Shown: piece after piece, positions 1,990-63,892 of the stretch
Layout: every line of letters begins with the position of its first letter
Numbering within the stretch: position 1 is the stretch's first letter
Origin: Sphagnum magellanicum
Lineage: Eukaryota > Streptophyta > Sphagnopsida > Sphagnales > Sphagnaceae
Length of the DNA stretch: 64,000 nt
Assembly (NCBI GenBank): GCA_021904315.1
Contig: CM038919.1
Span: 20,315,666 to 20,379,665, forward strand
Direction of reading: 5' to 3'
The notes under the pieces: model-generated
Told to the model about the DNA's origin: nothing
Seen by the model: only the letters and a program-made list of their open reading frames with translations
Database searches by the model: none
Made by a program: the position numbers and the translations under genes

Positions 1990-4380
1990 CCTCCTCCTAC
2001 ATACTCGACCTGACTACGTAATGTCCGGATCACTGATAGCAGCAACACAAGAACCTATTGTCGAAGGCGGGAAAAAAACAAAACAAAAACAAATCAAAAT
2101 CGAACTAGCGCCTTCACAAGAAGATGAGGATACCAAGATACAATACACGGCGTGCAGCAATTGCGGGGCTCAAAAACAGCAACTTGGCGAGGAAAATCAA
2201 AACGAAAACACAAACACAGGTGTTTTCTCTAAGGAAAGGAAGGAGAGGGACGAACAGTAAACCAAGACCACAACGAAAAAGGAACCAGTAATACAGACGC
2301 AATAATGAACGGAGGAGGTAGTTAAGACATTCGATAGAAAGAGGAAGAAGAGGAGAATGCAATCGAATAGAAGAAGAAGAAAAAGGAAGTCACATTGCGA
2401 CGAGAGATGCGCGAGAAATGCAAGCATTCAGCTCTGTTCCAAGAGGCAAAACGCATCGCGAAACACCAACAAGAGAGCAAAAGGAAACATGCAAACACGA
2501 CGCCTCTTGAACCCTATTCACTAGGTACCTCTTCAATCCGGAGATGTAGGTACCTACGTACCTACGTACCTACCTCCTCGAATAGGTACCTAACTTACTT
2601 CTTCTTTTCCTTTTTTTCTGTTTACTTTTCACTTTTGAAGACGATAGGTACGGTAAAAGTAAAAAGCAAAAAGTTATGATAGGAAAAAGACTAGCTATCA
2701 ATTAAATTTGGCGAATCTTTCCATAAATTAGCAAAATTAGTCAAATTTACAGTTTTACCAAAAAAAAAAACATTTTCCAGGAATTTTGGCGATTTTTGGC
2801 TCCAAAAAAATGGTAAAAATTGTCAGAAAGAATCACTGATCCTATCAAGAAAAAAAATGATAGAAAGTGAATATCCTTCAAATGTGGACTACATATTAAT
2901 GCATTTTATTTTGTTTAAATTTTATTTTAATAAATTTTTATTAGGCTTAATAAAATCAATGGTGTGGTAAGATAACTTCCTGAATTTTCATTTAAAAAAA
3001 GCTAAATTCCAGAAATCCTCACATTTTATGCAATATGAACAATGAACATGTATATGATATTGTGTTTTAATTTTAAACTTTTTCACAAGGAATGTAATTA
3101 CTGGTTTTTTAAAAATTAATTTTAGTGTTCAGTTCACATAACATACATTACATTCAATTAAATATCAATTTATGTTGTGATTAATCCTTTTTAATTAAAA
3201 TTTTAGATCTAGTGTGTTAATTTTTATTTATTTATTTGGCCACAAAATGCTTTAGGGTTTGGTGATTTTATTCAATGTACTTCAATTACAAAACAAACTT
3301 GTATTGATAACAAATGATTGTACCCAAGTTCAAATGCCTTTGTCATTAGACCCTAAACACTAAACCCCTATTGTGACTATAGGGGAAAAATAATTATAAA
3401 ATAATTTTTTTATGCCAAAATAAAGGTGCCAATTAATTAAACTTTCTACAAGCTTTATTATGCATTATTAAACTTGAAGAAGGTTGGGATTTTTGTGTTT
3501 TTTTTAATGTGACAATTTACATTGAGTTTGAGCTCCTTAACTATTAGCTTGTGTATTTTGTTAATTAGATTTTTTAATTAAAAATTTCTGCTTTCTCAGC
3601 AAGTTTGCATATCTTTTGTTTGTTTACATTGGAAATTTTTATTTTTTATTTTTTCCTTCAACTAGATTCATTCTTGTTAGTTTGCATAATTTGAACACAA
3701 AACAACACCGACATTGCTGAACTAATTTACAAAACCCTAATACTCCATACCCTAGAGTTCTCCCATTACAATCACATTTACAAAAAACAAACTTTGTAAA
3801 TATTTTGTGCTACTAATGAATATGATAATGATTTTAAAGAATGATGTTTCTTACTAAAATGGACGAATTATCAAAAATTGTGTGACACAAACAAGAATGT
3901 GACTAAAAAGGAAATATATTGTACATAAAAAAGAAGATCAAATTGGTTTGTCTTAACATTTAAAAGTTAATTTTTAAATTTTAGAGCTAAAAAACTCACA
4001 TGCCAAAATTCAAATTTTAAAACATAATAATAATTTGGCACTTGTGTCTATGTGTCAAAATATTACAATAAATGAAAATTATTTTTGTTTGGGTACATAT
4101 TAACCTACAGGTAGTCTTACATCACTACTATGGTTTTAAAAAAAACTTAATTTTTGTTGGGTTGTTTCTAAACATTGTAAATATTCCATCCATAGTCCCA
4201 AGTGGGGGGAGGGAGCTACAACCACCCTATTGCTCAATAGTTGTGTAAAATATTGTAATTTAAAATTTTTTAACTAAGTAGGGTTGTATGGAATTCAAAT
4301 TGATTCTTGTAATTAAAAAATGAAATTGGTTCAACAATCGAAAATCTCTGGTGTTGAAAGTGCGAGTCTATTAAATATAG
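1990..4380. other. Promoter side of EDM2-like gene, then AT-rich spacer
   Basis: The first ~500 bases have balanced composition and are the likely upstream region of the minus-strand EDM2-like gene. A TACCTACG simple repeat lies near 2546-2574. From about 2690 the sequence becomes strongly AT-rich, with A and T runs and no credible coding exon on either strand. Confidence 0.6.
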
Positions 4381-10400: not shown

Positions 10401-11022
10401 ATTTTACAAGTGTTTTGGCATGATTCTGTGCAGAGACATGGTACCTTGCCACTTCGTGCATATGAGGATGAGAAATTTTCCTTTGTAGTGCTGCGTCGTG
10501 GTACTCGGCCCCAGTAAGCTTCTTCAACTTGCAAAGCCCTAGCATGTGATGTAGAACTGGATTGAAGCACATAACTGACACCTCCTTTCCTTTTCCAGGA
10601 CACCATGGCCTCTGGATTCAGTAGAGATTTTGTCATCACCAGAACATGAGGCTGAAAATGACATTGAGCTTGAATACACTGATGAGCTCGAGTATGCAGA
10701 TGAGAATCAGGATATGGATTCAATGGTTAGTGAAGGGGACCTTGATCATGAATTTGAAGAGGAAGTTAACTCGGACAAGGATGAAGAAGAAGAAGAGCCA
10801 GAGCCTTTGGAGGAAGTAGCAGATTTGGGAGCTGGGTGGGCACGGATTGTACGGGCACCTATTAGAAGGGGCCGCCACACTGTTTTAGACTTGTGCCGTG
10901 CAACTGAGAGAGATGGGTCACAGGGGGCACTTAACCGTTTGGTGTGCTCACGAAGAGGGAAGTTTGCTGCACTTCACCCACAGGCTCGAAAAGCACATTG
11001 GGGTGACCTATGGCCTTGCTAG
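7430..11022 (+). CDS. METTL17: METTL17/Rsm22-family mitoribosome assembly factor
   Basis: Eleven exons: 7430-7565, 7741-8036, 8347-8420, 8634-8728, 9001-9098, 9267-9350, 9603-9683, 9849-9977, 10125-10220, 10434-10513, 10599-11022 (1,593 nt, 530 aa); phases agree at every junction. The family binds and matures the small mitochondrial ribosomal subunit. Landmarks: N-terminal FTLAGLQAAARQSQR helix; SAM-type loop VLDFGSGPGTVLW (residues 157-169); EVWPGAVAHANLVEPSRAM; a CAHDGVCP...WCHF block with Cys332, Cys338 and Cys347; EDEKFSFVVLRRG; an acidic stretch; Cys489 in VLDLCRATERDG; and the terminal HPQARKAHWGDLWP, as in plant homologues. The four cysteines match the 4Fe-4S ligand set known for METTL17. 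The start at 7430 (MANSVAAEVGRKSFTL) was chosen because it aligns with the plant N-terminus; the leader is nearly free of acidic residues, fitting mitochondrial import. The telomere-like minisatellite lies just upstream. Confidence 0.93.
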
Positions 11023-12931
11023 ATACAAATCCAGCTCATAGACACCAATACACAATGGTGCTGTAGTTCTTTCAGTTTGGAGTTCTGTTTCCAGGGAGAA
11101 TGAAGGCCAAAGTTTTCTGATCCAAAAGCCTGGGTTCTTCGATCATGCAATTCACAGCTCCTTTTCAACAGAGTTCAGTGCCAAAACTGCTATTCATGAG
11201 CCTCATTCTCCAGCTGCAGATAAATATTTGCTACAAGTGAGATCGTCATTACTTGGACTGTGCTCTGCTACCAACCTGCATCTGGCTGGCTATACACATT
11301 CAGTTGTGCACAGGGCAAGGTTCTCCAGCCATCAGTGATGCTTGTGACTCTGTCACATTCCTTAGCTCTTGTGCACCCATGCTGCTGCACCACAGAGCAT
11401 ATTGAAATGATGCATCTGATGGCAAGAAGCTGGAACTTCATTCTTTTGGGGTGAGGAGGAGGGCAAGGCAGATTCTGTGGTGAAGATGTGGAGCCCGAAG
11501 GAGGCAGTAGCATCTTCTCTTGATGCAGAGTGGAGGGGAAGCCCTGTGTACACATTTGGTTGTGACCACAGTGCACAGCATCACTATCAAGTCAGCACCA
11601 ATATCAAGTCCGATATGAGGCACTTAAGGAGATGTGGGTCACTCTTGTTGGTCAGGTTGAGGTAGTAGGTCGTACTGTCTTTCTTTCATCTTGTGCATCA
11701 GCCTATTGGTGATTCACTCCTTGGTGGTAGAAGGCCACTGAAGCACATAAGTTCAGCTGCTATGATGGTAAGGAATGAGGGCCTCATTTTTCGATGTTAT
11801 CTTGTTTGCATCTTACTGTCACGCTCGTTGCAAGCTTTGGAAAGTATGGGACTGCTGAAGGGTGATCCTAGCAGCTACTAGAGGATAAGAAATCATGGGT
11901 ATGGATTTTGATGTTCCATGTTGGACATCAAAATCTGACTTCTAGACATCACATTCATGAGTTCTTTGAAACATGGCAGTGAGAACTTGTATTTGTGTTC
12001 AAGGAAATCCCCATATCATGTGTGGTCTCCTTGAGGATAACTTAATCAAAGAACTTGACGCTAACAATCCAGTCAAGATCTGTGATTTCAAATATCTGTG
12101 ATATTTGTAATTGACATAATTGTTTACTTTTGGGCAGTTGTGAAAGATTAAGTTAATGTTTTGAATTCTACAAGGTGATCTGTTTGTAATCTGATGACCT
12201 TCTGCATGAGTGTGTTGTTGTTGGTCTGTTGTTGGATCACCTTTCAACAAGCTTTTGCTTTTGCATCATTCTCCATGCGCAGAGGGTGCCATCTATTTCA
12301 AACTTTATGTCCATTGAGTTTAATGTTTTTGCGTGTTGGTGCAATTGCAAACAAATATCTTACACAATTTCCAAACCTTTCATTGATCTTGAAATGTAAA
12401 GGAGAAGTTTTTTTTAAAAAACTATAATGGAAATAAGTTGAAAAAAGAGAAAACCGTAAATATATGTTTCAAACTTCAAGCAAACAAAGCTTTCAAGAGT
12501 TTGAGCTTTCCCCAAAAGACATGAACTCCTATTGAATTTCTTTTGCATCCAATACTTGGGCACTTGGGCTCTGCATTGCTCCACACTTAAAAAGGTCGGG
12601 ATATTGGATGAACAGATCTTTCCTCGGTTTTGCAATCAGTTGCCTTACGCAGGAGAAGGGGGCAAATCGTTACAAAAGCTGGAGAAAATCTGTTCATCTG
12701 ATTGGATGAAAAGAATGGGCTGACAGTACGTTCCTGTGGTCTGGTTTTCCGACATGGTTTTCAAGAGAAGGGAAAGGAGAGAGCACACATGCGAGCGAGC
12801 GAGCGAGCGAGAGCGATGGCGATCCAGCGAGCACGAAACTAGAATTTGTGAATGTGGGTGCAGGGGAAAGGAGTTGGATTCTGATGATTTGTATGTGATT
12901 AGTGCAAGATTTACTCAATTTTTTGGTTATT

Positions 12932-12982
<51 letters not shown>

Positions 12983-13002
12983 AAGCACCGTTTAGGTCAG
13001 CA
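11023..13002. other. METTL17 3' region and promoter of first glycolate oxidase gene
   Basis: The first part is the likely 3' UTR and downstream spacer of METTL17; I see no convincing exon in it. From about 12760 a GAGCGAGC-rich leader begins. From there to about 12910 it is recognisably similar to the sequence upstream of the second glycolate oxidase gene (about 19935-20100), so the duplicated unit includes promoter or leader DNA. Confidence 0.55.
12935..12976. repeat. (AC)n microsatellite in the leader of the first glycolate oxidase gene
   Basis: About twenty uninterrupted AC units ending 27 bases before the start codon at 13003. The second gene copy has no such array at this place. Confidence 0.95.
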
Positions 13003-16000
13003 ATGTCTTCTGAGGATCTGGTGAATTTGGATGAGTTTGAAGCTCTGGCCAAGGCCAAGCTGCCGAAAATGGCATTTGACTATTTTGCCTCCGGTTCAGA
13101 AGATCAGCATAGTTTGAGAGAGAATCGGAATGCATTCTCTCGCATCAGGTAATAATCTCCTTGCAGCAGCAACAACAACAACAACAACAAGATCCAGTTG
13201 GTTGGTTTGTTACAAAGTGGTCTTCCTCTCTCGTGTATTGTTGTCTTCTAGGGTTCTTTGATTTCCCCACACATTTCTCTTGAAAGATGATCAAAGCTGC
13301 TCCTCTTGCTGTTGTTGTTGAAGGACTGTTGTTGCAGTTCCTTTGCAATTCCAGTGCTGAATTCTGACATTTTCCCATTTGCAGTTTGGAGCTTATATTG
13401 TTGATTAGAGCTGTCTGCCTTTGTAGACCTGATGACGGAGCAATTGAAAACTATGTGTTTTTTTGGAGCAGGTTCCGGCCACGAATACTTGTGGATGTGA
13501 GTAATGTGGACACATCAACAACTGTTTTGGGTTTCCGAATTTCTATGCCCATCATGGTGGCCCCAACAGCTATGCACAAATTAGCAGATCCTGAAGGTGG
13601 CTTGAATGAATTTTTGGTTGTATGAATCCTTGGGTTGTCTCAGTGATTGTATGTATCACAGATGATTTCAGTCTGGTGATTGCTCCCTGACGAAGATTTC
13701 CAATTGAAAAAGTGGCAAATGGAACTTGTTGAGGGGTGGATGTTTTGCAGGTGAAGTTGCAACAGCAAGAGCTATATCAGCTGCAGATACAATCATGGTA
13801 TTTGCTCAAATCCCTTTGTTTGCTGGCATTTATGCCCTTACTCTGGATGCTTCTTTGGTTGCTAGTCTTTGTATTCTGGACACATGTACACACCAATTTT
13901 GTGTCTGTTCACATCATCAAAACTTGAATTTTATATAATCAGAACACTCAGAAGATTGATTGCTGAGGATTTTGTTGTGAATATGGAGCTCTTCTGGGTA
14001 TGGTGAATTTCTTGGAAGATATATTTTTTCTTGAAAATCAAATGCCTCATCAAGTAGACATGCAATCATGCAATTTCTGGATGGATTTGTGTACATCACT
14101 TTGTAGCATGCTTTGAAATGCTTGGACCTGATCATACGTGAACATGAGCATGGGATCCATGATCAAATAACAGACTGCATTGCAGTTCACATCTCTACAG
14201 TCCTGGTGGAGACTCTGTCTTGACACAATTCAGCTGACTAGATTTTCATGTATCCGGTAGTCATGGCATGCCTGACAGGTCTTATGTCCCAAGCTTTCAA
14301 GTGGAATTGGTATTCATGGGGGTTATGCAGATTTTGTCGTCCAGTTCCAGTTGCAGCATGGAAGAGGTTGCAGCAACAGGTCCAGGAGTTCGGTTTTTCC
14401 AGCTTTATGTAAGCTGAAAATCCCCTGTGATTGAGAACTTGTCCACATGGCTGTCTCTAAATGCAGAGAGGGGAGGACACCTTCAAAACTAGTTTACACA
14501 ATGCAAACCAGAGAATGTGAGTTAGAGAGAGTATACCAATCTATCCTGAGTTGTACAAAATGTGATACTCACCAACTGGGACTTTGCACTCTTTACTCAA
14601 AATGATTTATCACTAAGACAAAACTGCAACACAGATGTATGTGGCACCACTGATCCTGTAGTGATACAGGTCATAGACCCTGCGCTGGTTCACTTTTCAC
14701 ACTACTGGGTCCAGTTTGTGATCCAGTTGTGTGGCAGTTTTTGTGACAACCCTCAAATTTTTCACTCGTCAAATTCATTGAACGAACAGGTTTACAAGGA
14801 GAGACACATCACCACACAATTGGTGCATCGGGCAGAGGATGCAGGCTACAGTGCAATAGTGCTGACAGTGGATACACCACGACTTGGCCGCAGAGAAGCA
14901 GACCTCAAGAATAAGTCTGTATTTAAATTGAGCCAGAGTCTGCAGACACCTCCACAAAACCACCCTGCCAAAATGAATTCTGAAGTTTTTGACAGTTGAA
15001 AGCTGTTGGTAATGCCAACTTGCTAAACTTGGTAGGCATTGTGTTGCTGCAGGTTCAAATTGCCACCTCATGTGTCCTACAAGAACGTGGAGGGCCTCCT
15101 GAATGTTAACAACTTGGAGAAGGTGAACATAATCACCACCCACCTCATCAAGCTATGGAAGGAGTGAGAAGATCATAGCTCATGAATTATCCAAGAGTCA
15201 GTGTCAGTTTCTGTTAAGGTTCTGACACATTGGTGGTTTGACAGACCAGTGATTCTGAACTTGCTGCATGGGCAGATAACCTTTTTGACAGATCCCTCAA
15301 CTGGAAGGTGGGTTTCCCGGGTTCTTGCAAGGGGAGTAATTTTTCCAAATTTTCTTCAAGGAGAAGGAACATGGTCCAATGTGTAGATACCATGTCTTAA
15401 ATCACCTCTAATGCATTTGCACCAGAGGCTAACTGACTTGCACCACTGGCCCTAGGGTGTGGACCTGAATTCCAGATTCTCTCAATTGCAATCCTGGTTT
15501 TTCACTCCTATAACACAAGTGGTATCTTCAGGATGTCAAATGGTTGCAAAGCATTACCAAACTGCCTATAATTCTCAAGGGAATTCTGACTGTTGAGGAT
15601 GGTAAGTTCATGTGCCACAGTTCTGTTTGCCTACTTACATGGTATAAAGTTACGTATGTCTGCTGTTTTCATATGGTGTACAGTGATAATTTTCCAGAAA
15701 TTTACAGTGGCTTACTTGAGTAATCATGGCTGGCACATTTGGAACATGCCTGCAGCAATATTGGCAGTGCAGGCTGGAGCTGCTGCCATTATGGTTTCTA
15801 ATCATGGAGCTCGGCAACTCAACCATGTTCCTGCTACAATTTCTGTACTTGAGGAGGTTTGCCTGACAGACTCTTATCTTTCTCAACTATGATTTCACAG
15901 GCAGGTTACATCCGCTACTGAGTTTGCTCATATGGTCAGATAACCATCTGATAAGTTGGAAACATGAAATGTAGATTGTGAAGGCTGTGGGTGGGCGAGT

Positions 16001-40253: not shown

Positions 40254-42655
40254 ATGCACCATTACTTCTATAACGTGCAACAGGAGCTCATGCGGCAGAG
40301 TGGCAGTGTGCCTGGCTACACAGTAGGGATGATGCCAGTCCCAGGTTCTTCCTCCAGCTCTGGCACTAGTGGATTTGTGCCCTCAACTACAGCACCAGGG
40401 GTGCCGATTATAAGCCACCCTCCAGCCATTACGTATCGTCCAATCCGGCCTTCAGATCTGGAAGTTTTGCAAGAGATCCATGAGGCATTGTTTCCAATCA
40501 AGTAAGTTGGTAGCTGATACCTATCACCACTTGTCTATTCTCAATCTGCATATGCTGTTGGTGTCTTCAGTTTGCTTGTCTATCTCCCTCTTGACAAGCA
40601 ATGGATTCATTGCAGAATGAGTCCTTTTTATGAGGATGTCATCAGGATGTGTTTCTAAATTACTGAATAACTCAGTGATTGCGTGTACTGTAATGTCTCG
40701 CTTTAGTTGTAAGTGTTAAGGAGTTCTCCCTTATTTAGGTTAGCTGCTTTTTATTGGTGCCACATCTGAACATATGATGCTTTGAATCAGGTATGAAGCT
40801 GAGTTTTTTATGAATGTGGTCCATGGCAAAGGGATCATATCATGGGCAGCTGTGGACAGTAATAGATCAGATTTGCAATGTGATGAGTTAATCGGGTTTG
40901 TCACAGCACGTGTTGTTACTGCAACAGAAGGCGAGGTGGGTTATTTTACTCAATTTCGCCTTCACCTTAGTGCATTGCAGTTTGGACTCTTGTTAATCAG
41001 CTTCTACATTGCTGAAAAAGGACAGCAGCAACTATTTCTATGCTGCTGAAAGTTTTGAAAAAATGTTTTCAATCTTGAACTGTGTTTTCTCACTAGAAAA
41101 ATTGTTTGCTCAATATTTGCTTCAAATATACCAGATCTGAAAGAATTTGCAATATGTCCAGGCTGAGTACATCTTTGTCCTCAGACTTTTCTGTCAGTCT
41201 GTGCTGTCAGGTAGTATTTCCAATGTATGTGATAAGTCATGCTCTGGATAAATAGGTCAACTGCAAAAGATCTGTAGAGGAAGAATGTCATGTGTTGTCG
41301 CAGCTGTCATGACTCTCATCCTTATATTCTCAAATCTTTAAGAATATCCATTGCCAAAGTGAACAGGAGGACACAGAGTAAACTGTGTCCAAAGGGTTTG
41401 TCAGGGAATGGGACATAGTAATGTATCTCCTTGTTTCTGAGAATTTTTTTGGGTAGATTCTTCTGTTTGTAGGTCTGAAAACTGTTCTAAAGCATATTGT
41501 CTGTAATCACAGATAGATGGAGCAAAAAGAAAGTTTGATATCTTTGAAGAGGGCCTTGCAACAGTGGATGTATGGAATATTGTGCCAAGATACTCTGCCC
41601 ATAGTTTTGTTCATGAAGACTAGACTAGCAATGAAAACCAAGGGATGCTGTAATATTGATGCTACCTTGCATGATTCTGCAGCACAAGGCATTGTGAGAA
41701 AATGGATGGCTAGGTCATTTCCAAAAACCATTCCTGTGGTTTGATGTCTATCATGATGGTCCATGTGCTGCCTGCATTTGGATCCTAAGTATGTTGGTGC
41801 AAACAGCTGAATGGGGAGGCCCAATTTTCATGGTGGTGTGTAGGAGTCAGACATGCTGGGGTGTGAGATGCTGAAGACTGAAAGGTCACTCATTTACATT
41901 CTAACTCTTGGTGTGATCAAGCCATATCGCAATTGTGGCATTGGTACGAAGCCTTAAACCTTCAGCTACATTTTGTTTTGTTGGTTAGGCAGGGACATGT
42001 GGCATAACCGGAGAAAATGATTGTTAAGCTTTATCCAGAGTGGCACTCTTCTCTGGTAATCATAGAGCTGCTTATTTTGCACTCGTCAGCAATCCAGACA
42101 CTTAGGAAGTTGGTAATACCTAGGGAGCTCTTGTGTATGTTGGTGAGCAGTATTGTAACATAAAATTGAGTGGCAAGGCGACTTGCATGTTGCACTGGGT
42201 TCAAGAATCTTTGGATGTTTCTGTTTGTTGGTTGCAGCATCTGCACTGGTGTGGGAGGTGATACACTATGCATCTCGCATCTCAACTTGTAGAGCAGTGT
42301 ATCTGCATGTGATATCATACAACCAGTCTGCTATACATTTTTATCAGAAGAACATGTTTCATTGCCTGCGAAGGCTTCACAATTTTTACTGCATTGAAGG
42401 CCGCTATTATGATGCTTACCTTTATGTATATTATGTCAATGGTGGACGCTCACCATGCTCTGCTGTGTATCCTCAACACCTGAAGTACGGAGTGCTTTGT
42501 CTTTCAGTTGATAATGTGCTGTGTTTATTGCAAAGGCAATGTCATACCCTGTAGAACTGCGACTCCTTAACTGTCCTTGTGTCAGTGACCTTTTGACAGT
42601 GTTCACAGGATATGTCCGGAGTTTCTTCACATCGATGGCATCAAGGCTCTTCTAA
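40254..42655 (+). CDS. NAA60: NAA60-type N-alpha-acetyltransferase (GNAT family)
   Basis: Five exons: 40254-40501, 40791-40935, 41844-41943, 42238-42466, 42586-42655 (792 nt, 263 aa), all in phase. NAA60 (NatF) acetylates the N-termini of membrane proteins facing the cytosol; the Arabidopsis relative is MCC1-like. Signature blocks: ITYRPIRPSDLEVLQEIHEALFPIKYEAEFF, split across the first junction; SWAAVDSN and DELIGFVTARVV; SLIYILTLGVIKPYRNCGIA with the acetyl-CoA loop R160-x-x-G163-x-A165; YLHVISYNQSAIHFYQK; FHCLRRLHNFY; and VNGGRSPCS. The end, GYVRSFFTSMASRLF, is an amphipathic tail like the one that tethers the family to membranes. The first ~60 residues are a Ser/Pro-rich extension; an in-frame stop lies just upstream of the chosen ATG unless another exon is spliced in. 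The last intron has U12-type signals. Confidence 0.92.
42467..42585 (+). other. Probable U12-type (minor spliceosome) intron of NAA60
   Basis: The 119-nt intron starts GTATCCTCAA, close to the U12 donor consensus RTATCCTTT. It carries ACTCCTTAACT about 12-22 nt before the acceptor, close to the U12 branch-site consensus TTCCTTAAC. It ends in TCAG with only a short pyrimidine stretch. The phase (2) joins SPCSAV to DLLTVF, matching the family alignment. Confidence 0.75.
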
Positions 42656-59120: not shown

Positions 59121-61125
59121 ATGAAGCTGGAAGGACTCAGCCGTGGAATTAATCTCAACAGCTTCGTGTCTAACGTTGTAATAGGCCTGTACCATCTGCT
59201 AGCAGCTGTGTGTGGCATCAGCAGCAAAATTCCCTCGTCATGGAAGAAACTTTTTGCAGCTCCAGCAATCAAAATAGAAAACCAAGCCTCAGTGGATGCG
59301 GAACTCAAGGGGAAACATGCATCGGAGGTCGACGACGGAGATGGATCGCTAGAATCGGGCTCAGCAGAGAACGACAGTGCGTTTTTCGAGAGGCTGGATT
59401 TTCTGGAACAGAGGTGGAGAGAACGTAGGGGAAGAGAAGATTCTGAAGCGGACTTTCATGAGACCACCGGACCACATTACCCCTGTGCACTGATGTTGTC
59501 ATTCACTTGCGGCCTCTCAGAGATGCAGGAAAGGAAATGGGTTGAGAGGCTCAAGAATCTCTATGGTTTTGCTCCGCAAGTTGAGAGATTAGCGTTCTCC
59601 ACTGTTGTACAGACACAAGCATGGACGTATGATGATCTTCTATGTCATGCAGAAATTATTCTTCTGCAGGCTAATGAGGATGATGATCGCAGCACTTTGC
59701 AGTTGGATAGTTGGGGACTCTTGCTCAACTCCACTGGTAAGCTGGTATGCTTACCGCAAGAATAGCATGATTCTCTGCAAAAAACATTAGCCATAATTTG
59801 TATCAAACCCAAAGAAAGAGACAAAGTCCTTTCTGCAGAGCTTTGTGTCAATAGGAAAATTATCTTGCTGGTGGGTTAGACCAAGCATTCAGCTTCCTCC
59901 TCTTCACCTTGTTGTGGTATGGTGTAAAAAACTGGATTCAAAAAGACAAGGAGAAGCCGGTCAGTTGTGCATGTTTGCAGATACTGTGACACCCTTCTTT
60001 TCTTCCTGCTGCACACCAACTGCATCACTCCTCTCCTAAATGTTTGCGTGAACACAATCAATCCAGATCTTGATGGGCTTTTGATGAATTTCCTGCTAAC
60101 CCATGATCTGATGTGCTGGTATGACCAGGGAAACAGGTAAAGCTGTTGAAGCTTCAGGGGATTGATGTGCCTGTCATCACCAGTGTGGTTCAAGTATGTG
60201 GTATGTAAGCACAAACAAGTTTTGTTTATGAGTTTTCTGTTTGTGTTTGCTGTGTCATGTACATGTTTGCCTTCTTCTATTCATGTGCATTTCTGTGCAT
60301 CTATATTTCAGATCTTTCAACCACAAAAACATTTGCTCCTCCACTTGATCCCCTGCCGTCCCCATAACCTTAGATCCCCCAATTTAAAGCCAGCTATGTC
60401 CAGAGTCCATGGAGACAAGTGGCCTATGGATGCTGCAGCCTGATACAGATTGAACAAATCCTGATGTTTTCTTGTGGTCAACCTTAAAGAGCTTTGCATA
60501 TGGCCAGTGGCAATGCATATGATTCTATTGGATTGGGATAACAGTTCCTCAAATTTCTTTAACTTGCAGCTGATACACTGGAAATAGAAGGTGTCCACTT
60601 GGAAGGCGTGCAGATATTGGCTTCGACAAATGATCATATCACAAACTTGTTGTCCATATCACGGATTTCAAGGGTAAGAAACATACCTCCATTCCAGCGC
60701 TACCGAGTCTCTTTTTCTTTTTCTGGGTGTCTGGTCTGACTCATTATACTTTGCCCAGAACATCAAGAAAAGGATTTAACAAGTGCAACTGGTGTTGCTG
60801 GGTTTGACAGGGAACAAAAGGACCAGTGCTGACAGTACAGTGTCCTTCAGAATATCACAACCGAGGACTGCAAGTTTATGCTGCCAAGCCTGTGAATATA
60901 GATGGCTCTTACATATCCGTACATAGTGAACCTGCACATGTATCGGTTGTTGATGTTAGTGAATCAAGCCTTGGTATGATGATCAAGACACCTTTGCCTC
61001 TTCCCATCCCCGCCATCTATGAACTTGATAGCTGTCTCTATCTTGAAATTGCAGTTTGGTCCATGGTTGGAGTCACTCTTTTGCTTATCTTTAGGAGACT
61101 ACTGAGAAAAGGTTTGCAGCTATGA
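59121..61125 (+). CDS. Unrecognised membrane-associated protein upstream of the SDP1-like gene
   Basis: Four exons: 59121-59736, 60129-60200, 60570-60673, 60811-61125 (1,107 nt, 368 aa), in phase throughout. I do not recognise the family. The first exon has an N-terminal hydrophobic stretch (VVIGLYHLLAAVCGI), then an acidic and charged region (residues about 60-115), then a folded-looking part (YPCALMLSFTCGL, RKWVERLKNLYGFAPQVERL). Exons 2-4 read VKLLKLQGIDVPVITSVVQV, TLEIEGVHLEGVQILAS and PVLTVQCPSEYHNRGLQVYA, giving a beta-rich look. A single transmembrane helix (EIAVWSMVGVTLLLIF) near the C-terminus is followed by basic residues (RRLLRKG). The SDP1-like start codon lies 16 nt after the stop. 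A GT...AG pair could fuse the two frames. Function unknown. Confidence 0.75.
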
Positions 61126-61141: not shown

Positions 61142-63892
61142 ATGACATTTTTGTTCAAAGTTTTGATTAGAAGCACAAGGTGTTTTACTTCTGCTCTGTA
61201 TATGCTGTGGACAGATCCAAGTACTTGGGTTCTGATGGTCCTTACTATGGCAATACCCATTGCCCAAATATCTTGGTCCATGCTATTTCCATCACCTGGC
61301 TCTACAACTGCAGCAGTGGTTGGCCAGGTGCTTGGCTGGATATTGGGTTGGTTGACATTGCAACTTCTGGCCACAAGGTATGTGAAAAACTTATCTCAAG
61401 TAGAATCAGATTCTGAGTGCTTTAGTTCATGTGAACTGCTCTTACTTATGTGGTGTAGGGATATTGAGAATTCATCCAGCATTTCAGAATTTACACACTA
61501 AGGAATTCTCATCAGATGTTTGCTGTTGTAGTAATGCTTCTCACCCTAGCAAAACCTAGACAGAGTTCTGAATCATACTTTTCCATCAGTAGTCCTTTGC
61601 TTCAGACCTAACCAAACATGTTGTTACAGGTACATGTGTCACATCGTTGAAGGGGAAAGTGATGGCAAATGGGGTTGGAAGATTTGGAAACCATGTGCAG
61701 CATTTGCTGCTGTAGTGTTAGTGTCATTCCTGTCTTGGACACATGTACTTGGTCCTAGGGCAGTACTTGTAGTGACAGTGGCAACCGTGATCATTGGTTT
61801 CGCAATTTGTAGAAGGAGAAAGCATTTGGGCTCTCATAAAGCAGTTGAGATCACTTCATGTCATGCTTATTGGACAAAATTGATGGATGCATCTATCACC
61901 TATGATGAGTGGGCCCAGGCAGCCAGCATGCTGGTTCCTGAGGGTGACTTGAATGAATCGATGCTTTATGATGAAGCCTTTGTACAAGGCAAGCTTTCTG
62001 AGCTGCAACAGCGACGGATGGAAGGCAGTGTGCAAGAAATAATCTTTTCCTTGCGAGCGGATCTGTCTCGTAATCTAGGCAACATGTGTAATCCACAGCT
62101 GCACATCAGGAGACAGCAGATTCCACGACTTGTTCATGAGTATCAGAATGAAGTCAGGTAAGTCTGTTCGCTGGTTGTTTCTGCAGTACTCTTGTGCAAC
62201 TATGTGGAGTGGCCTGGATTCATGCTCTCTATATTGTTTCTATGTTTCTATGCTGGCACTTTAATATGCCGTGACTGAATCTCATGGGTATGTGATACAA
62301 ATCTGGTTACAGAAACCACCTCCATGCAATATGTGAAATGAATCCGGAGGAGTTCACATTGGAAGAAAAACTCACCTGCATGATGGAAACACGGCAGAAT
62401 TTTGGTCGAACTGCACTTGTGTTCAGTGGAAATGTTGCATTTGGAACATTTCATACATCAGTCTTCCGAACCTTGGTGGAGCACCAACTGCTTCCAAGTA
62501 TAGTGGTGGGGGCCAATGTGGGAGCCATTGTATCTTCCTTTGCAACCACCCGCACATCAGCAGAACTCCAATACTTTTTCGATCATCCAGCACCTCCAAT
62601 GCAATTCTATGAGAAGATGTGTGCTGCATATGTTGCTGCATATCGCTTGAGCACCCAGGATGCTAGCACCTATGAAATTGAGAAGCTGCAACAGAGCATG
62701 CAGGACTTGATTGGGGACCTAACATTCGAGGAGGCATTTGAATTATCTGGTCGTGTTCTTGGCATTTCAATACCTGCTTGCCGGCTGGGAAATCAGCCTT
62801 CACAGTTCTTGAATTACTTGACATCTCCACATGTGGTCATATGGAGTGCTGTTGCTGTCTCATGTGCACCCCCTGTTGGTCTGCTCACTTTCCCGGAGCT
62901 CATGATCAAGAACCGGGCTGGTGAAATTGTTCATTATTTGCCCCCTACAAAAGTAAGGGATTCACACCATTATATGTGAAGCAGATCAAAATGCTATGAT
63001 TTTACTTCAAGCATGTAGGGTTGCTGCTTCTTCACAATGTCTTGTCAAACACTGCACAAGATTCAAGCCACAATTCTGGATCTCTTCACATATGCAAGAG
63101 ATGGAAAATATGTTGAAGTGGACATGTCTGTGAAGTGCAGATGACAGCTGCAAAGAGGCAGGGATGCAATCCCAGCTTAGAGACTGAGCTGCCCTTGCAA
63201 AAACTGAGGGAGCTTTTCAATGTTAACCATTTTATCATCAGCCAGTCAAGTTCATACATTGCACCATTATTGCATCTCAAGGAGACCATTCAGGCTCACG
63301 GTGGCCTCAGAGGCAAGGTGTGCAAAATCTCTGAACACTCACCAAGCTTCTGAAAGTTGTCAAGTGAAGAGCTTGGAACTTTTGTCAGCTCCTGCTCCAA
63401 CACATACTTCATTTTTCACAGATTTTTTAGAATGGTTTGCCTGAATTTTGGGTGAACAATTAGATACTTATCTACACCTACCATTGCGAGCTGATGAAGT
63501 CAGTGGGTCATTAAGGCAGATCATCACTGCTATTTGTAATGAAGGTGCCGGTCTGACAGCTCATTTGATATCAGTTCAAGTTGCCTACATGTTCAAATTC
63601 TGGATTTAACGATAAGCATTGATGAAGTTGATAGCAAGGCATCTGACCGCTTCCATTGCTCATCTCCATTGTGCTGAAGTAATAGTTTTTGTGTTTTAGT
63701 CTGTAGAAATTGCTCCAAGAATCTGAGAATGGTTGCATTTCCTGACAGTTAGCAAAAATGGCTGAGATAGAGACAAAGCACCGGTGTTCTCAGCTTGCCG
63801 ATTTGGGAATTGAGATGGGGGGGTTCACAAGCTTATATGCCCAGAATTGGGAGGGTGATATCAACATCGTCCTTCCAATGGGTTTTTCACAG
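61142..63892 (+). CDS. SDP1-like patatin-domain protein with altered catalytic residues, 3' end outside window
   Basis: Exons: 61142-61377, 61630-62157, 62313-62952, 63141-63317, 63749-63892, continuing past the right edge; all in phase (575 codons so far; SDP1 is about 825). SDP1 is the oil-body triacylglycerol lipase of plants. Matching blocks: ITYDEWAQAASML, LSELQQRRMEGSVQEI, LRADLSRNLGNMCN, LNYLTSPHVVIWSAV, LRELFNVNHFIISQ, IAPLLHLKETIQAHGG, KHRCSQL and AQNWEGDINIV. The N-terminal half has about four hydrophobic segments (residues about 26-140), more than usual for SDP1. The nucleophile motif GSSVG of SDP1 reads GANVG (Asn323), the SGGASLG oxyanion loop reads SGNVAFG, and the catalytic DG reads QG (Gln475). 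Frame and splice sites are intact, so it looks like a pseudoenzyme and not a decayed gene. The start at 61142 (MTFLFKVLIRS) aligns with the SDP1 FRVLFCRS region. Confidence 0.9.

Follow-up and report, generated by a model that had tools for sequence, protein, structure and literature searches.

The window analysed here, a 64,000-nucleotide stretch of Sphagnum magellanicum DNA (C13:20315666-20379665), contains a gene related to the triacylglycerol (TAG) lipase SDP1. The gene, which we call C13, comprises ten exons, the last of which lies outside the window, and encodes a protein of 1066 amino acids (aa) in which DUF3336 and patatin domains follow an N-terminal module (N-module). Its paralogues C14 and C5 and the canonical SDP1 genes C3 and C18, all from the same genome, serve for comparison. 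The exons are as follows.

59121..59736, + strand: exon 1, with the start codon, a hydrophobic segment (aa 15-33) and the first part of the N-module; the same stretch is present in C14 and in S. fallax P0123
60129..60200, + strand: exon 2, N-module
60570..60673, + strand: exon 3, N-module
60811..60973, + strand: exon 4, N-module
61215..61377, + strand: exon 5, with a hydrophobic hairpin (aa 324-342 and 352-370); P0001 starts at the corresponding Met in C14
61630..62157, + strand: exon 6, with a second hydrophobic hairpin (aa 391-409 and 415-433) and DUF3336
62313..62952, + strand: exon 7, with the end of the DUF3336 region and the greater part of the pseudo-patatin domain
63141..63317, + strand: exon 8, holding the lost Asp site
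63749..63892, + strand: exon 9, 144 nt, of equal length in canonical C3 and C18
64266-64859 in window numbering (L009:6932-7525): exon 10, beyond the window

All nine introns are of the GT-AG type and the frame is kept. An earlier note on this DNA had described an intact frame with correct splice sites over five exons; the frame and the GT-AG sites stand, whereas the exon count is ten. The exon at 62313, taken there to begin in phase 0, is in phase 2, its first base completing a codon. Reading frame 1 from 62313 was rejected because it runs into a stop. We also dropped a longer first model in which exon 4 ended at 61111. The end was set at 60973 because the C14 frame breaks in the longer form and because the donor site after 60973 is common to C13, C14 and C5; some genome searches, namely those for canonical genes and for dispersed copies, used a C13 query with the longer exon 4.

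Proteins from other Sphagnum species have the lengths of the modelled products. S. fallax P0123 has 1066 aa and is 96.7% identical to C13, while S. jensenii P0121 has 1084 aa, as in C14, to which it is 97.6% identical. P0001, on a 3512-base contig, aligns gaplessly with the spliced C14 protein from residue 324 to the end (99.87% over 761 aa), so C14 appears to be transcribed, with the splicing that the model predicts; judging by its crossing of introns, P0001 is probably a transcript. The C13 stop lies at codon 1067 (64857-64859 in window numbering; L009:7523-7525), which ends the protein 27 residues before that of C14. P0123 has the same early end, which points to an old change. Elsewhere in the window, open frames at 12724-13152 and 14550-14999, 10579-11022, and 42159-42554 match FMN-dependent dehydrogenase, mitochondrial ribosomal Rsm22 and a GNAT acetyltransferase. 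Rfam at gathering score and a tRNA search gave no match within the 64,000 nt.

The open frame at 62296-62979 translates to SGNVAFGTFHTSVFRTLVEHQLLPSIVVGANVGAIVSS. Where SDP1 has the nucleophile elbow GxSxG, C13 has GANVG (62509-62523, + strand), and codon AAT at 62515-62517 places an Asn at the position of the nucleophile Ser. The oxyanion loop reads GNVAFG (62428-62445, + strand) in contrast to GGxxxG in canonical SDP1. Both departures had been claimed in the earlier note and were read again at these positions, although the Asn, numbered 323 there, is residue 617 of the full protein. That account contained neither the upstream N-module nor a third replacement, the loss of the catalytic Asp: canonical DGSLE is NPSLE in C13 (63168-63182, + strand; AAT CCC AGC TTA GAG, with the Asn codon AAT at 63168-63170). 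The Asn codon at the nucleophile site is AAT in both C13 and C14 and AAC in C5. The nucleophile, general base and oxyanion loop are described as having roles in ester hydrolysis (PMC12871566), and C13, judged by its sequence, appears to have lost catalysis.

The surroundings of these motifs are SDP1-like, as had been proposed. DUF3336 (PF11815) was detected in the exon 6 piece of C13 with 56.6 bits (cut-off 25) and in P0123 with 65.3 bits, and Patatin (PF01734) in exon 7 with 33.6 bits (cut-off 27.7). Patatin scores of the relatives are 28.5 bits in P0123, barely over the cut-off, and 31.9 in P0124, compared with 77.8 in canonical P0134; the profile gave no hit in P0003 with E values up to 5 allowed. 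In a whole-genome Patatin profile search (E 0.001) canonical C3 and C18 were found, whereas C13, C14 and C5 were missed. NCBIfam yielded nothing above its cut-offs, a PDB search with exon 7 gave a single weak patatin match (E 0.16), and the AlphaFold model of P0123 is poor (mean pLDDT 45.3).

A search of the genome (438,994,042 bases) revealed three intact genes of the non-catalytic kind, C13, C14 and C5, each with an open ten-exon frame. It also answered the earlier note's question of whether a canonical SDP1 occurs in the same genome, as there are two, C3 and C18. C13 is 51% identical to C3 over 543 aa, and the four downstream introns have identical phases in C13, C3 and C18. The divergent C5 paralogue lies at C5:23041-23047 kb (L041) on the minus strand with an open frame. 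Its predicted product, modelled from the genomic sequence, comprises at least 1341 aa, with the stop slightly further on in the same frame. Among the best 120 of 470 hits we found no C5 orthologue, though S. fallax and S. jensenii are present there; their orthologues may be unannotated.

A segment of the C14 gene, with its introns, also recurs in the genome as at least 15 dispersed copies, which are 96-98% identical to it (L024-L038, one locus per copy; also L044, L047-L049 and L052-L066) and lie on contigs C1, C2, C3, C5, C7, C8, C9, C10, C11, C16 and C17. All 15 stop at one exon 6 base (L040:4816) and start at 2403, 2901 or 3577-3584, with a shared repeat extending beyond the gene part. Three annotated S. 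magellanicum proteins join the C14 piece to other domains: P0168 (PF11904), P0172 (PF02183 and PF00046) and P0175 (all three), families that we take to be HD-ZIP and ANKRD13-like. The dispersed pieces look as if a mobile element had captured a fragment of the gene.

Catalytic residues were compared in an alignment of 166 rows, consisting of C13, C14, C5 and 163 proteins drawn from two hit sets, the best 120 of 698 in one and the best 120 of 470 in the other. The nucleophile Ser is absent from 10 rows, all belonging to the non-catalytic group (C13, C14, C5, P0001, P0002, P0003, P0121, P0122, P0123 and P0124), and every one of the ten has Asn. The Asp is replaced by Asn, Gln or Glu in 9/9 covering rows (P0002 ends before the site), and the oxyanion loop starts with GN or GH in 10/10 compared with GG in 156/156 others. 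These remaining 156 rows keep Ser, Asp and Gly-Gly throughout; since only the best 120 of each hit set were aligned, exceptions elsewhere are possible. Besides P0003, the Asn relatives come from S. fallax (P0123), S. jensenii (P0121, P0122) and Ceratodon purpureus (P0124). The earlier note had proposed to seek the GANVG motif in related genomes, and proteins with the GxNxG pattern do exist in other mosses. Among the best 120 of 470 hits, none of the rows, canonical or otherwise, bears the name Physcomitrium.

Conservation was further counted by column over eight non-catalytic rows, leaving out P0001 and P0002 as near copies of C14. Among the 260 columns with at least 98% conservation across the canonical set of 156, all eight rows keep the residue in 123 and depart from it in 58. 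For the core (P0134 residues 101-600) the corresponding figures are 236 conserved columns, 112 kept and 49 changed. Changed columns cluster within 12 residues of the motifs (17/49, versus 43/236 of the conserved columns; p 0.0014 by resampling), also when the motif residues themselves are excluded (13/45 versus 39/232; p 0.017). In sixteen of the 49 changed core columns the eight rows agree on a single replacement residue, a pattern that hints at a new constraint.

In a 37-row tree computed without the catalytic columns, the eight non-catalytic rows form one branch (support 100/100). Ceratodon P0124 and P0003 are placed with the C13/C14 group (97/92); outside it falls C5, a long branch that drew a warning from the tool. 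Sphagnum and Ceratodon belong to different moss classes. As Ceratodon lies inside the non-catalytic clade, the Ser-to-Asn state is most likely older than the divergence of Sphagnum from Ceratodon. The subfamily may have originated within mosses or earlier: a constrained tree placing the eight rows together with seven moss canonical rows was not rejected (p-AU 0.359), nor clearly one with six liverwort rows added (p-AU 0.088), some of these rows being called moss or liverwort from their tree position. P0133 groups with liverworts in the tree.

Upstream of DUF3336, simple hydropathy analysis identifies five hydrophobic segments in C13 (aa 15-33, 324-342, 352-370, 391-409 and 415-433), compared with two in C3 and one in C18 by the same measure. 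In C5 the first such segment is at 257-275 and not at the protein start. Pfam matched no family upstream of DUF3336 in P0123 or the C5 piece, and reported DUF3336 and Patatin alone in P0123 and P0124. A profile search with the N-module retained 23 proteins at E ≤0.01 among 7995 scored, of which 11 were retrieved, with P0001 read in addition; we call the module moss-only in the sense that no other group is named among those 23. The final stretch of the module is present in Ceratodon P0124.

One of the 23, Physcomitrium P0176, has the N-module and a hydrophobic hairpin joined to other domains without patatin. Its annotated name is HMA domain-containing and it carries Pfam domains of the TPR type. 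A direct BLASTP comparison of P0176 with the window N-module gave 32% identity over 46% of the module. Two more Sphagnum N-module loci lie away from patatin or SDP1 matches, at C5:19876100-19877300 (L079) and at C6:3104896-3105561, the latter known from match rows alone. P0176 and these two loci share with the window protein a 'DPQSTLQLGSWG'-like block, which has the form TLQL..WG in the window protein. L079 entered the search at E 3.1e-4 and was then itself a profile row; the connection from the SDP1-fused module to these proteins is thin at some points. The window gene appears to have arisen long ago, when a moss module was fused to a shortened SDP1.

Selection was estimated from paralogue pairs within one genome by a simple method (Nei-Gojobori), which gave an overall dN/dS of 0.21 for C13 and C14 (bootstrap 0.15-0.28) and of 0.15 for the canonical pair C3 and C18. 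By part, the C13/C14 values are 0.22 for the N-module, 0.08 for DUF3336, 0.11 for patatin (bootstrap 0.04-0.23) and 0.23 for the tail. The linker with the hydrophobic hairpins (aa 319-448, about 61215-61853) is less constrained, at 0.56. A codon model of the DUF3336-patatin core in five genes yielded an omega of 0.106. Over the whole alignment, dS of C5 is saturated relative to C13 and C14 (3.0 and 3.7). Purifying selection acts on the patatin and DUF3336 parts of C13. For the dN/dS comparison raised in the earlier note, values are far below 1 and frames intact, here between paralogues and not orthologues. Together with the GxNxG relatives in mosses and canonical C3 and C18 beside it, this agrees with that note's proposal of a retained non-catalytic SDP1 paralogue; its label of seed-oil lipase is unsuited to mosses, which have no seeds.

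Strong purifying selection across the patatin domain would also fit a protein in which catalysis persists by another route, whether with a different nucleophile or as an acyltransferase. The pPLAIII proteins, a different patatin subfamily, resemble C13 in having a patatin domain that lacks GxSxG. They carry GxGxG in its place yet are treated as phospholipases (PMC7284883). At the nucleophile, however, pPLAIII has Gly and the C13 group Asn, with GxNxG in 10/10 rows. Moreover, Ser, Asp and the oxyanion Gly are all replaced in every covering row, and conserved columns near the motifs changed more often than columns overall (17/43 versus 49/236, p 0.0014). On balance, we regard continued catalysis as improbable.

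Alternatively, the N-module and membrane segments may do the work, the patatin domain being retained only for its fold or for docking and playing no part in lipid metabolism. That the module occurs without patatin, in P0176 and the two further Sphagnum loci, speaks for this explanation, but constraint in the C13/C14 pair is strongest on DUF3336 and patatin, ahead of the N-module, and we find this explanation hard to credit.

A recently dead gene drifting towards a pseudogene could likewise account for the end of C13 27 residues before that of C14 and for the relaxed linker. The early end is, however, also found in S. fallax P0123, the frames of C13, C14 and C5 are open with an overall dN/dS of 0.21, and the Asn is common to Ceratodon, which makes recent decay very improbable. 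The chance that the catalytic codons result from faulty assembly or sequencing is negligible: nothing was found to speak for it, and proteins from other species and sources have the same residue.

C13 is very probably a selected, non-hydrolytic pseudo-lipase. Lacking nucleophile, general base and normal oxyanion loop, the protein would be unable to hydrolyse TAG. It is predicted to sit in the membrane of the endoplasmic reticulum (ER) or of lipid droplets, where the kept DUF3336-patatin surface, suggested by the strong constraint on both domains, may still bind lipid or partner proteins. C13 might then regulate lipolysis or serve as its scaffold without catalysis of its own, for instance in a pair with the catalytic SDP1 proteins C3 and C18. 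The step from a protein that is bound to one that regulates is one that we infer. As mosses appear to have retained the gene intact over a long time despite the lost catalytic residues, it probably regulates or organizes fat metabolism rather than carrying out the breakdown. The reading that we favour, and consider likely, is an ancient, selected, membrane-bound moss pseudo-lipase of SDP1 type, probably a lipid-binding regulator or an SDP1 partner. Its link to SDP1 or lipid droplets is suggested by homology and precedent, and that the window protein acts on SDP1-dependent lipolysis in particular we propose only tentatively.

If correct, an inactive sister kept beside active SDP1 would offer a genetic handle on the regulation of plant lipolysis, as ABHD5 does for ATGL, and a C13-type protein would be a natural test of the roles of DUF3336 and the patatin fold apart from hydrolysis. 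SDP1 is the main TAG lipase of germinating Arabidopsis seeds and has homologues in Physcomitrella (PMC10671748). Suppression of SDP1 is reported to increase oil content in several crops. No catalytically dead SDP1 or moss pseudo-lipase is described in the titles and abstract openings among the matches listed, a set outside which most subscription papers and all bioRxiv preprints fall.

Compared with known systems, C13 shares with the SDP1/SDP1-LIKE lipases the order of DUF3336 followed by patatin and the downstream intron phases. It differs from them in the replacement of Ser, Asp and oxyanion Gly, and in that the canonical N-terminus gives way to the N-module with extra hydrophobic segments. 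That N-terminal module is what it has in common with the moss N-module proteins (P0176 and the loci at C5:19.876 Mb and C6:3.105 Mb); unlike C13, P0176 has no patatin domain. The closest functional precedent is ABHD5 (CGI-58), a co-activator of the patatin lipase ATGL that is thought to lack lipase catalysis. Its nucleophile Ser is Asn153 (PMC9694394), an Asn at a position analogous to that in C13, and it regulates and activates ATGL (PMC8850477, PMC4706320); the tie to a patatin lipase is that of ABHD5. ABHD5 has an alpha/beta-hydrolase fold, whereas C13, known from sequence, has a patatin domain, so the likeness is one of analogy. This precedent and the kept surface are what favour a membrane-held regulator of SDP1-type lipolysis that binds lipid or a partner. 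A bolder version, which we think unlikely, is that before the split of Sphagnum and Ceratodon mosses fused a membrane-anchoring module to an emptied SDP1 and so arrived independently, by the same Ser-to-Asn change, at a plant counterpart of ABHD5 within the patatin fold itself that would pair with active SDP1, at the ER or on lipid droplets, and so switch TAG lipolysis.
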